A DNA stretch of 60,486 bases from the NCBI RefSeq assembly GCF_028712425.1, contig NZ_JAQTQD010000017.1, positions 1 through 60,486 on the forward strand, in the 5' to 3' direction. The translations under genes and the position numbers were made by a program. The notes below the pieces were generated by a model. That model worked only from the letters and a program-made list of their open reading frames with translations, did not search any database and was not told the origin of the DNA. Origin of the DNA: Methanoregula sp. Its GTDB lineage: Archaea; Halobacteriota; Methanomicrobia; Methanomicrobiales; Methanospirillaceae. This document shows, piece by piece, positions 24,647 to 49,072 of the stretch. Every line of letters begins with the position of its first letter. Positions within the stretch are counted from its first letter, which is position 1.

Positions 24647-25867
24647 TCATCTCCAGGTCTTGACGGCAAGGACTATCGATCCCTGTACCGTTTTTTGCTG
24701 TGCTTGGGTATATCCTTCTTCTAATGTTGCTACGCGGGAAGAGATATTGGAGGTAAGGGCGGTGTGTTCCGGCGTGCCGGGCTCCGGGAACCGGCCCACC
24801 CAGACAAGAACGGCCGGCCGGATTGCCTCAATCGCTGCAAGCATCTGGTCAAAGGCAAACCCTTCGCAGACAGCCCCGTCGCCTTCCTGCTGGCCGATGA
24901 CGAGCGTGATGGCGTCACTTCCGGAAACATTCCGGGCGTATTGCGCTGCGTCGATTGTCGTACTGAGGTTTGTCCCGCTGTTGGCATTGTCCACAACAAG
25001 AATGCCCCCCTCTTGCCGGACTTCCATCCGGCCGGTGAGCGCTGTGAACCTGGAGAGAGGGAACGGGTCGAACCCGAGCATCATCGCAGCGGTACCGGCA
25101 AGGGCAAGCGAGTCCCGGTACGCCGGCAGGGCAATGAGGGGATTGGTGAACCGGCTGTTTGCGGTACCCAGCGAGATTGTGCATTCCGTTCCGGTGCACG
25201 ACGCAGCGTTTTCCAGGTGCACGACAGTATCCTTTGGATTGTCCGTGATCCCTTCCGCGAGCAGGAGGTTTTGGCAGGAACGTGCGGATGCGAGTTTTGC
25301 TAAAAGAGCCGACTTTTTCCCGGCTGCGAACCGGTAATCCCCGGAAGAGGTGATGACTCCCAGTGTCCCGGCACCTGTGAGGCCGAGCGATTCTTCAGCA
25401 ATCAGCCAGCCGCGGGTCTCCCGGGCGAGCCGGACTGCTTCCATTACCGAGCCGGGCGTGATGCTGGAGCGGGAGATGAATTCTTTTTCTGGATACCGGA
25501 ACGTCCCCGATGAGGTGTGCAGGATGCCGGGGCCTGGCAGGACCGAGGCAAGGGCATGAGCGGTCGTGGTCTTGCCCCGGGCACCGGTGATTTCCACCAT
25601 GATTTCAGGCACGTTCTTTCCCAGCAGTTGCCGGACCGCTTCATGGTGGGAGATAACAGGGGCGGTGGCACTTTTGAGCAGCGGGTGATCCGGGTCAAGG
25701 TGCACGGGAGCAACGATGAGATCGTATGTCCTGGTGCGGGCTTCTTCAACGCTGACCGGGCCGGTCCCGCGGTACACGTCAACAAGATCAACCTGGTCGC
25801 CGCGGGAGACGAACGCAGCGGCGATCGGTCGCCCGCCGTGAATCGCGTCCAGCACCAGGGTCTTCAT
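24647..25867 (-). CDS. cfbE: Coenzyme F430 synthetase CfbE
   Basis: The 406-aa protein is a Mur-ligase-like ATPase, with the P-loop EITGARGKTTTAHAL near residues 93-107, a central VVDNANSGTN segment and a C-terminal VLVWVGRFPEPGTPEH region. It activates the propionate side chain of seco-F430 with ATP and closes the carbocyclic ring, the last step to coenzyme F430. It lies 11 bases downstream of cfbA and shortly upstream of cfbD, so all four genes form one operon reading leftward. Confidence 0.92.
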   Translation of the reverse strand: MKTLVLDAIHGGRPIAAAFVSRGDQVDLVDVYRGTGPVSVEEARTRTYDLIVAPVHLDPDHPLLKSATAPVISHHEAVRQLLGKNVPEIMVEITGARGKTTTAHALASVLPGPGILHTSSGTFRYPEKEFISRSSITPGSVMEAVRLARETRGWLIAEESLGLTGAGTLGVITSSGDYRFAAGKKSALLAKLASARSCQNLLLAEGITDNPKDTVVHLENAASCTGTECTISLGTANSRFTNPLIALPAYRDSLALAGTAAMMLGFDPFPLSRFTALTGRMEVRQEGGILVVDNANSGTNLSTTIDAAQYARNVSGSDAITLVIGQQEGDGAVCEGFAFDQMLAAIEAIRPAVLVWVGRFPEPGTPEHTALTSNISSRVATLEEGYTQAQQKTVQGSIVLAVKTWR

Positions 25868-25878
25868 ACAAAAAAGGA

Positions 25879-26277
25879 TCAGAGGGTGAGGGCCTTGTTC
25901 GCGTTCTTGACCATGAGGTCAGCGAGCAGCGGATCGCTGCCAATGGGATCGGCATACACGAGCGGAATGCTCTTGCCGTTCAGCTGGTACGCGCCCTTCT
26001 TGACGCCTTCGGGCAGGCCAATCTCGCCGGGGATATCCTTCTCAATGTGGACGCCCTTTGCAAGGAAGAGGGGGACGACAACCAGCGCGTCGATCTGCTC
26101 TTTTTTGAATGCATCCATCGACTCTTTGATGGTCGGCTTGTTCATGTTCATGAAGCCACACTTGACGACGAAATCGTTGTTCTTCGCCTGGATCATGGCG
26201 GCGGTCTTCTCAACGAGTTCCTGGTTGTAGGGCATCGTGCTGCCATGCCCGACAAGTAACATTCCCTTCTTGCTCAT
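25879..26277 (-). CDS. cfbA: Sirohydrochlorin nickelochelatase CfbA
   Basis: The 132-aa protein is a small CbiX-type chelatase, first in the cfb operon. Metal ligands are the His in LLVGHGS (residue 11) and the His in LAKGVHIEKDIP (near 76). It inserts nickel into sirohydrochlorin, the first committed step of F430 synthesis. The length matches the homodimeric archaeal short form. GGGGG-rich sequence is not seen upstream; the ATG is preceded by GGAGATACCCCC, with GGAG as likely ribosome-binding site. Confidence 0.93.
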   Translation of the reverse strand: MSKKGMLLVGHGSTMPYNQELVEKTAAMIQAKNNDFVVKCGFMNMNKPTIKESMDAFKKEQIDALVVVPLFLAKGVHIEKDIPGEIGLPEGVKKGAYQLNGKSIPLVYADPIGSDPLLADLMVKNANKALTL

Positions 26278-26510: not shown

Positions 26511-26963
26511 ATGAGTGATTTCGAGCGGGAGATTGTCCACTGCCTGAACCGGTTTTTCAAGGCAAACCACATACAGGGATTTGCGTACCGCCTCAAGCAG
26601 CACAAGTTCACGAGCCAGTACGTGGATGTCCTGGTTGACTCGCTCAACCCATCTTACTACCTCTCGATCGAGTGCAAGTCGATCATTGACAAAAAACTCT
26701 ACTTCTCGCAGCACTTCCATTCTGATAAGAAAAATGTTCACCAGGTCGATGCAATCTCGGATTTCCTCGCAAAGACCGGGAGGATTGGTTTTCTCGCGGT
26801 CGAGTTCCGGCAGGGCCCGGGAAAGCCGAGCGAGGCGTTCCTGATCCCGTGGGCGATTGTTGTCGCTCATTTCAAAGAAAATAAGGGGATCACGATAGAG
26901 GACGCACGAGCCGGAATTGCGCTGGCGAAATGCAAGGACGGGTACGTGCTGGAGAAGATGTGA
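26511..26963 (+). CDS. PD-(D/E)XK nuclease, Holliday-junction resolvase-like
   Basis: The 150-aa product has a restriction-endonuclease-like active site: Asp in QYVDVLVDSL (about 38-41) and the ECK triad in YLSIECKSI (about 54-56), followed by a HQVDAISDFLAKTGRIGFLA region and a C-terminal FLIPWA segment as in RecU/Hjc-type resolvases. It may cut branched DNA in recombination or repair, or be a specialised nuclease. It is divergent from the cfb operon and precedes the hairpin array. The fold is likely; the exact family is not certain. Confidence 0.7.
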   Translation: MSDFEREIVHCLNRFFKANHIQGFAYRLKQHKFTSQYVDVLVDSLNPSYYLSIECKSIIDKKLYFSQHFHSDKKNVHQVDAISDFLAKTGRIGFLAVEFRQGPGKPSEAFLIPWAIVVAHFKENKGITIEDARAGIALAKCKDGYVLEKM

Positions 26964-27027: not shown

Positions 27028-27178
27028 TTCGACAAGTCGAAGAACCCTTTCGGGTTCGGTCGAAGACCAGATGGTCTTCTTCTCTCGCAAGTCTGATGAC
27101 TTGTTCGATTCTCCAGTTTCGGGATTGGAGAGGTCAGAGACCTCGACAACCTGAAGGGAGGCGGAAGCCGACCTTCAG
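27028..27178. repeat. Tandem array of seven short hairpins
   Basis: Successive perfect inverted repeats are seen: TTCGAC/GTCGAA (27,028-27,041), GAACCC-TTTC-GGGTTC (27,042-27,057), GAAGACC-AGAT-GGTCTTC (27,062-27,079), CAAGTC-TGAT-GACTTG (27,088-27,103), TCTCCA-N10-TGGAGA (27,110-27,131), GAGGTC-AGA-GACCTC (27,130-27,144) and CTGAAGG-N14-CCTTCAG (27,151-27,178), the last enclosing GGC-GGAA-GCC. The stems differ in sequence, so this is a repeat of structure rather than of bases. It lies just upstream of the marker 9 gene and may be its 5' leader. Confidence 0.75.
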
Positions 27179-27240: not shown

Positions 27241-28380
27241 ATGATGGATGCATTCGACCGTTTCGGCCTTTTGATCAATGACCGCGTGGTCAGGACGCCG
27301 GTTGCGGTGGCTTCCATGGCCGGGATTGTCGATGCCGATTATCTCCTCGCTCGCAGGGACCATATCGGCCTTGGATTCATTGGCGGCTATTCCATCGATG
27401 AACCCACTATAGAGGCGGCAAAGGTCGTTGCTGAGGGAGACGGAAGAAAGGAGTTCCTCCCGGAGGATCCCATTGCTGAACTGAAAGTTCAGGTGGCTAA
27501 AATGGAGAAGAGCGATGTCATCCCGGGGATAAACCTCCGCGGGAGTTTGCCGGATTCATTCTCCCGCGTGGCGCAGGCACTTGGCGATGCCGTTGTGTAC
27601 GAGATCGATGCTCACTGCCGCCAGCCGGCAATGATCGCTGCGGGCTCCGGAGAATATTACCTGAAGAACACGGGGAAACTTGCCGCGGCAGTCAGGGCGC
27701 TGAAGAACGAGGGGGTCACGGTTTCGGTCAAGATCCGGGCCGGTGTTGCCGAAGACGACCGGGCTCTCGCGGAGCTGCTCTGGGCTGCCGGCGCCGATAT
27801 CCTGCATATTGACCTGATGGACTTTGGCACGGCAAAACTCCGCCAGATCCGGAACACCTGCCCGCTCCTTCTCATTGCCAACAACGGCATCACCACGTTC
27901 GAGCGGATGAAGGATATGCTCTCGCATGGTGCCGACATGGTCTCTGTGGCACGGAAGTCCGACGACCGGACCCTTGCCGGGCTCGATGCCGCGATCACGC
28001 GATACGCTGACGAAGAGGGGTGGTATAATGCCCCCAAGCAGCTCTGCCGGGGCGGCGACATCCGGTCGCTCGCCTTCTGCTGCATGCCGGTCAAGGAATG
28101 CCCGCTCATACCGATGCTCTCGCGAACCGGCATCTCCCATGATGACTTTGTCAAAATGAAACTGGGTGGCGTTTCAGGTACCCCGCTCGACACCGGCCGC
28201 CAGACCTGTTTTGGCAGTCTTGCATGGTGCTGTAAGACATCCTCACCCTGCATGTTCCGGGACATGACATTAAAGCAGGCCGGGATCCCAAAGAAAGAAT
28301 ATATGCGCCTGAAACGCGAGCTCTCTGATACCATAATGGCGCAGGTGTTCCATGACGTGCCTCCGGTTAAGTACAGTTGA
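27241..28380 (+). CDS. Methanogenesis marker protein 9
   Basis: The 379-aa protein combines a TIM-barrel domain like dihydrouridine synthases (residues about 10-255, with VKIRAGVAEDDRALAELLWA and HIDLMDFG) and a Cys-rich C-terminal domain (LAFCCMPVKECPL, RQTCFGSLAWCCKTSSPC), which could bind Fe-S clusters. This layout matches the protein called methanogenesis marker 9, found in nearly all methanogens; its reaction is not established. It overlaps the CitG-like gene by about 28 bases, so they are co-translated with the DUF447 gene. Confidence 0.85.
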   Translation: MMDAFDRFGLLINDRVVRTPVAVASMAGIVDADYLLARRDHIGLGFIGGYSIDEPTIEAAKVVAEGDGRKEFLPEDPIAELKVQVAKMEKSDVIPGINLRGSLPDSFSRVAQALGDAVVYEIDAHCRQPAMIAAGSGEYYLKNTGKLAAAVRALKNEGVTVSVKIRAGVAEDDRALAELLWAAGADILHIDLMDFGTAKLRQIRNTCPLLLIANNGITTFERMKDMLSHGADMVSVARKSDDRTLAGLDAAITRYADEEGWYNAPKQLCRGGDIRSLAFCCMPVKECPLIPMLSRTGISHDDFVKMKLGGVSGTPLDTGRQTCFGSLAWCCKTSSPCMFRDMTLKQAGIPKKEYMRLKRELSDTIMAQVFHDVPPVKYS

Positions 28381-48487: not shown

Positions 48488-49072
48488 AGGAAGTATGCGG
48501 GGACGGTTGTGGAAACGCCATCCCGGTTCGTTTCGCGTGCTCATGTCCGGAAAAAATAGCGATCCTCCATCCAAAAGGCACCAATTAGGCGATTTTTAGA
48601 GGCTGAAATGGCACCCAGATCCTGAAAATCTCCCTGGTTCACCCGTATTTCCAAAACCGCCTGCTGTAATTCACGAAAAAAGGCGACTATCTGGAAAACC
48701 GTTTTTCAAAATGGGCTCCAATCCGAAAAATAACCTCAAATTAAAGAGATAATTTTACTGTGCGATTACTCCCTGAAAGGGAGTAAGAGCTCGAGAATGT
48801 CAAGAGGCATCAGACATGAGACATGAGAAGAAAGTCTTCGAAGAACGAAGTTCTTCGAGCAGGGAGACTCTCCGACAAGGCCCGGAAAAAAGGATATCTC
48901 CCGGTCCCTGCATATCCACCCCGGGTTAATCCGCCGTAATGAAGCCTGTCTTTACCGTGGTACTCATACTATACCGCATAGACGCCGGGCTGGGAACAGA
49001 TACAGACAGGCGTCTTCCCGGTGCTGCCGATGATCCCGATGTCCTCAGTTCACAATGCCGGCGATCCGGCTG
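48488..49072. other. Intergenic region with two hairpins
   Basis: No supported gene is seen. ACTCCC-TGAAA-GGGAGT forms a hairpin at 48,768-48,784. TCGAAGAAC-GAA-GTTCTTCGA forms a nine-pair hairpin at 48,838-48,858, flanked by AGTCT (48,833-48,837) and AGACT (48,865-48,869). The second resembles the hairpin at 40,580 in having purine triloops and CGAAG stems. Confidence 0.6.

Follow-up and report, generated by a model that had tools for sequence, protein, structure and literature searches.

The described systems closest to the locus considered here are the REPINs and BIMEs (PMC3116915, PMC6006769, PMC3733652), short palindromic intergenic repeats that have a doublet as their unit and occur both singly and in clusters; their arrays are mosaics with units in both orientations, their stems carry compensatory changes, and copies are present or absent at related sites. 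The repeats described here share all of these traits. REP-like palindromes have also been found in archaeal genomes by a generic search (RepRanger, PMC12306157); Methanomicrobiales are not among the archaeal species that it lists, and a double-hairpin GA family is absent from the part of that report considered here. TIGR arrays (PMC12045711) likewise consist of variable stem-loops with short conserved motifs in tandem; they are located next to a gene for a Nop-domain protein (Tas) and have two spacers that are independent of each other (PMC12045711). A search of the open-access literature returned no description of a GA-flanked double-hairpin family.

The array lies at positions 27028-27178 of a 60,486-nucleotide stretch of Methanoregula sp. 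DNA (the window, part of genome G000), whose nearest named relatives are Methanoregula. We interpret it as one locus of a REP/BIME-like dispersed repeat family of Methanomicrobiales with a dimeric unit, a reading to which we give a probability of about 0.7. An earlier note, written from the window's sequence, had proposed a structured leader, a protein-binding array or the product of repeated quasi-palindrome formation; its interpretation is partly supported, and a dispersed, mosaic and apparently mobile repeat family is not visible from the window.

The array upstream of the marker 9 gene

The array has no assigned strand and is a mosaic of hairpin modules, pieces of which match other genomic sites. 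It is flanked by a gene encoding an Hjc-like resolvase domain (26511-26963, plus strand; PF01870, borderline) and by a gene for a methanogenesis marker 9/Dus-like protein (27241-28380, plus strand; TIGR03277), for which the earlier note had the correct name, and it ends 62 nt before the marker 9 start codon. The minus strand just upstream (24647-26277) carries cfbE and cfbA, two genes of coenzyme F430 biosynthesis.

The row of seven stems reported in the earlier note is confirmed by comparison with shuffled sequence of equal composition. Counting non-overlapping stems of at least 5 bp, we observe seven (43 bp), whereas 1000 shuffles of the 151 bases that preserve dinucleotides average 2.2 and never exceed 5. 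With stems of at least 6 bp we observe six (39 bp), compared with a mean of 0.8 and a maximum of 4; neither value is reached in any of the 1000. The span-limited folding energy of the plus strand is -65.6 kcal/mol, about four standard deviations below the shuffled sequences (-43.5 +/- 5.1), none of which is as low in 500 trials. A simpler hairpin count is weaker but agrees, with at least four hairpins in 4 of 2000 shuffles.

Arrays are present between the same two genes in three relatives, G040 (marker 9 92% identical), G014 (91%) and G048, and the hairpins differ at each; no array is present in G002, where the two genes nearly abut, or between the Hjc-like and marker 9 genes of a further relative (L155). 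The intergenic region of L155 (4580-5549) is unusually long and T-rich, with poly-T runs. The hairpins at this site are not shared between those species, and array content turns over at conserved sites. A structured 5' leader or riboswitch controlling marker 9 would fit the 62-nt distance to the start codon and the arrays that G040, G014 and G048 have at this place, yet the hairpins there are not the same ones, marker 9 genes stand without an array in G002 and L155, and Rfam searches at gathering and relaxed thresholds gave no credible family match. Because the same modules are found beside many unrelated genes, in both orientations, and orthologues in several relatives have no array, we regard a leader function as extremely improbable.

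A GA-flanked double hairpin as the elementary unit

Three types of hairpin recur. Hairpin A, read on the GA strand, has an outer stem (about 3 bp) and an inner stem (5-9 bp) that are separated on both sides by GA, which makes a 2x2 GA/GA internal loop; the loop that closes the inner stem is mostly ATCA. Hairpin B is GAAGA-N-TCTTC with GA on either side, and a third type, C, is GAAGG-GA-GGC-N4-GCC-GA-CCTTC and has a GA/GA loop too. The elementary unit is a double hairpin of about 45-57 nt (around 53) in which A and B follow one another in fixed order: 5'-N3-GA-(stem A, mostly ATCA loop)-GA-N3'-(1-2 nt)-GA-(stem B, GAAGA..TCTTC)-GA. There are 58 distinct dimers, many of them standing alone. B lies 0-2 nt downstream of A in 66 of 227 A units and close upstream in 9, a set from which overlapping loci were only partly removed and which includes some A units matched by chance. 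For one dimer the fold of the GA strand is more stable than that of the complementary strand, both as RNA (-30.5 and -26.6 kcal/mol respectively) and as DNA (-17.3 and -15.9 kcal/mol). A hammerhead or box C/D reading of the CTGATGA apex was dropped, as the motif is inside a palindrome and has no GAAA partner and no k-turn bulge. Tandem repeats of 79 nt with GGGGGCATCAGCCCCC hairpins, an ATCA loop and no GA flanks occur elsewhere (L211, ~2300-2600, and L219) and are perhaps a related type.

The seven stems of the window can be described in terms of these modules. Stem 1 (TTCGACAAGTCGAA; 27028-27041, minus) is, by direct reading, a degenerate flank of the next module; stem 2 (GAACCC-TTTC-GGGTTC; 27042-27057, minus) is a B-like hairpin in TC orientation; and stem 3 (GAAGACC-AGAT-GGTCTTC; 27062-27079, minus, where it reads GAAGACCATCTGGTCTTCGA) is a B hairpin. 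Stem 4 (CAAGTC-TGAT-GACTTG in plus reading; 27088-27103) is enclosed in a minus-strand A hairpin at 27082-27109, whose loop is ATCA on that strand (covariance model R1, 21.9 bits, E 3e-4). Stem 5 (TCTCCA..TTGGAGA; 27110-27131, no strand) has a long loop and overlaps the next unit, and stem 6 (27130-27144, plus) is inside the A hairpin TTG-GA-GAGGTC-AGA-GACCTC-GA-CAA at 27125-27149 on the plus strand, which has the tandem GA/GA internal loop (24.8 bits, E 3e-5). Neither A hairpin was in the R1 training set, and the two are on opposite strands. Stem 7 (CTGAAGG-GA-GGC-GGAA-GCC-GA-CCTTCAG; 27151-27178, plus) is a C-type hairpin that has the same GA/GA internal loop and recurs in other arrays. The earlier note's perfect stems of 6-7 pairs with mostly three- or four-base loops hold broadly, with some deviations: stem 1 has 6 bp only with a 2-base loop and otherwise 5; stem 7 encloses the inner GGC/GCC stem, so that not all loops are of 3-4 nt; and stems 5 and 6 share 27130-27131, or 27125-27131 if unit 6 is taken with its GA/GA outer stem.

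For covariation, A hairpins were gathered by sequence pattern with no pairing requirement, and clear chance matches and duplicates were removed by hand; MAFFT misplaced the GA columns in units of unequal length, so equal-length classes were aligned. In these alignments 95-97% of cells are paired, there are 37 and 30 double changes, and none of 500 shuffles reaches the covariation score. Alignment A5 of R1 was selected for complementarity, and its covariation is excluded from the evidence. The B stem in 11 dimers also covaries, at pairs whose complementarity the search did not fully require. The ATCA loop and the non-complementary GA/GA flanks persist while the stems vary, and among B hairpins of G000 there are 37 with GA/GA flanks compared with about 4 with complementary flanks. 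Read from the aligned copies, stems vary with compensation and GA/GA stays, and this covariation across many loci supports the proposal that the stems differ while selection or a generating process keeps the structure. Non-adaptive template switching, in which quasi-palindrome correction makes and perfects palindromes, would account for complementary stems in the absence of selection. Since such a process would be expected to remove the GA, its retention makes mere palindrome perfecting unlikely: plain quasi-palindrome formation leaves the survival of the GA/GA flank unexplained, its persistence in most hairpins already speaks against template switching as sole cause, and the modules recur as discrete dimers in fixed order. 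We give this explanation little credence.

Dispersal, orientation and turnover

A DNA search with the 286-base intergenic region gave 10 further matches in the same genome, each over a different part of the query, and several in 4 of 39 relatives (G014, G019, G002 and G017), again over differing parts; read out, the match sites are arrays composed of recurring modules. The A-hairpin pattern matches 21 times in G000, 14 times in G040 and 25 times in G048, reversed-pattern controls never, and R1 gives 39, 29 and 50 hits respectively, with rough E-values and, owing to a first-look filter, counts that are lower bounds. GAAG..CTTCGA occurs 247 times in G000 compared with 26 for its control. A scan for hairpin clusters, which the earlier note had suggested, found 7 arrays of at least four hairpins in 460 kb of G000 (the window and 400 kb of long stretches, from contigs chosen for holding matches and covered nearly whole) and none in Markov sequence. 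The commonest symmetric 2x2 internal loops in these 460 kb are TC/TC (10) and GA/GA (8), the same loop on the two strands, and 200 kb each of G021 and G018 contain no such array or loop excess. Three-hairpin clusters with recurring CT/CG internal loops, possibly a different palindromic family, were seen in G018 (L059; ~580, 12525, 13890 and 17819). The window itself has a second, partly decayed array at 48738-48858, with a decayed A and B hairpins mapped on the plus strand at 48760-48858. R1 hits extend through Methanoregula relatives (up to 50 per genome, with no hit in G011) to a second genus of that family (g18) and, with weak hits, to a few other families of the order; of the hits in 294 genomes taken from across the phylum, just three, each weak and single, lie outside the order.

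Units are mainly intergenic, single, tandem or inside IS5-type MITEs, and in either orientation. Arrays sit between convergent, divergent and co-directional genes, sense and antisense units are about equally numerous (gene orientation being taken from a home-made hexamer gene-calling model), and orientation is mixed in 12 of 22 arrays in G000 and 8 of 9 in G048. Mixed orientation and the lack of strand preference argue against a strand-specific RNA and against a marker 9 leader. A functional structured RNA, with the GA strand transcribed as an mRNA-stabilising or sRNA element, would be consistent with the strong covariation and with a stable fold containing tandem GA and an AUCA loop, but units have no strand preference relative to flanking genes, are mixed in orientation inside arrays and include several arrays between divergent genes, and we consider it unlikely. 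Alternatively, selection might retain the repeats as scattered DNA sites bound by a protein that organises the chromosome or recognises hairpins; this would suit repeats that are mostly intergenic, numerous and conserved in structure, with the same loci kept in three species. Their patchiness in close relatives (abundant in G000, G040 and G048, no hit in G011) is more easily reconciled with a mobile repeat than with a core binding site, and we hold such a role to be improbable.

Comparison of related sites points to mobility of the dimer. A 50-nt A-B module is present in MITE copies C8 and C46 and absent from the otherwise similar C5, C18 and C14. G040 has no array at the position of the window's second array, and a 55-nt B-A module lies 40 nt away in the same intergenic region (window ~48720); it also has an extra 54-nt B-A unit inside its orthologue of the 27028-27178 array. 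Single dimers are thus present or absent between paralogous or orthologous sites, as these sequence comparisons demonstrate; this could partly reflect deletion or, for the 54-nt unit, unequal recombination within arrays. There is no clear target-site duplication around single dimers. At a second conserved site, seen in three species (L213, L193 and L244), a dimer lies by the same left flank, and one of the three has an entirely different A stem, which suggests module exchange.

Some copies are carried in MITEs of about 400-480 bp with sharp ends, the terminal inverted repeat GCTCTGTAGAAA and candidate duplications of about 9-10 bp, and in this they resemble IS5-family MITEs. About eight G000 elements have terminal inverted repeats matching an autonomous IS, and none was found at the window array. 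The same ends delimit an IS5-family element that is present in multiple copies in G000 and breaks the assembly at many contig ends. One copy is at L272 688-1659; L249, L254 and L256 are among the contig ends, and related copies are frequent in G054 and G006. All movement could in principle be due to the IS5 transposase, the hairpins being passengers of these MITEs, as their presence inside such elements would suggest. However, the IS end was not detected in hairpin-rich G040 or G048, so that MITEs appear to be one vehicle only; the 27028-27178 array and many others show no such ends, and dimers come and go inside the MITEs. We doubt that passenger transport explains the family.

Candidate mode of spread and relation to known repeats

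Y1 (RAYT/IS200) transposases (PF01797) are absent from G000, G040, G048, G014, G019, G002 and G046, with the control search positive in 5 of 14 genomes, and the array-rich Methanoregula genomes yielded no reverse transcriptase either. A search for IS91-type Y2 transposases gave no hit, and control genomes gave none either. No gene recurs beside non-orthologous arrays as a 'REPtron' might; the only loci that grouped together were orthologous ones.

Returning to the dispersed dimer family, we tentatively suggest that dimers spread in the form of folded single-stranded DNA, which a putative host enzyme would recognise in trans; of the two strands, GA has the more stable fold. The unpaired GA/GA may act as recognition feature and strand marker, arrays would grow by tandem duplication, and stems would be exchanged through recombination between copies. 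The single-stranded-DNA step, taken alone, is a speculative part of this scheme. Equally conjectural is the fuller proposal of an archaeal minimal mobile element, a GA-flanked double hairpin of about 53 nt copied via a single-stranded structured intermediate by a candidate enzyme that would belong to neither the Y1/RAYT nor the reverse-transcriptase families and would recognise the tandem G.A mismatches. We do not suggest that the array serves specifically to regulate marker 9; any influence on adjacent transcripts would be a side effect, as it is with REPs.

The family is a well-delimited REPIN-like one in archaea with an unusual unit, in array-rich genomes that lack the one class of enzyme for which movement of such repeats is known; should the dimers still be moving, there must be a new mobiliser. 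With so many covarying copies, the family is a natural test set for the tandem G.A, the ATCA loop or the hairpin pair as the selected nucleic-acid feature. There is also a caution for annotation, in that intergenic hairpin arrays of this kind should not be taken for leaders of particular genes.

Compared with TIGR arrays (PMC12045711), the variable parts in Methanoregula are mutually complementary, copies are scattered throughout the genome, and the neighbours of the array are the Hjc-like and marker 9 genes, with no Nop-domain (Tas) gene beside it. Compared with IS5-family MITEs, the dimer itself has no such terminal inverted repeat, occurs without a MITE and is abundant where the IS end is not found. 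The relation to REPINs and BIMEs is closer: like REPs, these are palindromic high-copy intergenic repeats of 20-40 bp, and a doublet is again the over-represented basic unit, with A-B spacing of 0-2 nt and single dimers present or absent. In contrast to those systems the family is archaeal, its unit is two different GA-flanked hairpins adjacent in fixed order whereas a REPIN is two inverted REPs folding into one hairpin, and no Y1/RAYT transposase accompanies it in the array-rich genomes. The GTAG/CGTC tag of REP superfamilies is not seen in the 58 dimers with 22-nt flanks, which have GA/GA and no constant tetranucleotide. As searches for the tag and for the enzyme both gave negative results, the family is no member of the RAYT-linked REP superfamilies, yet in organisation and behaviour it works like REPINs and BIMEs.
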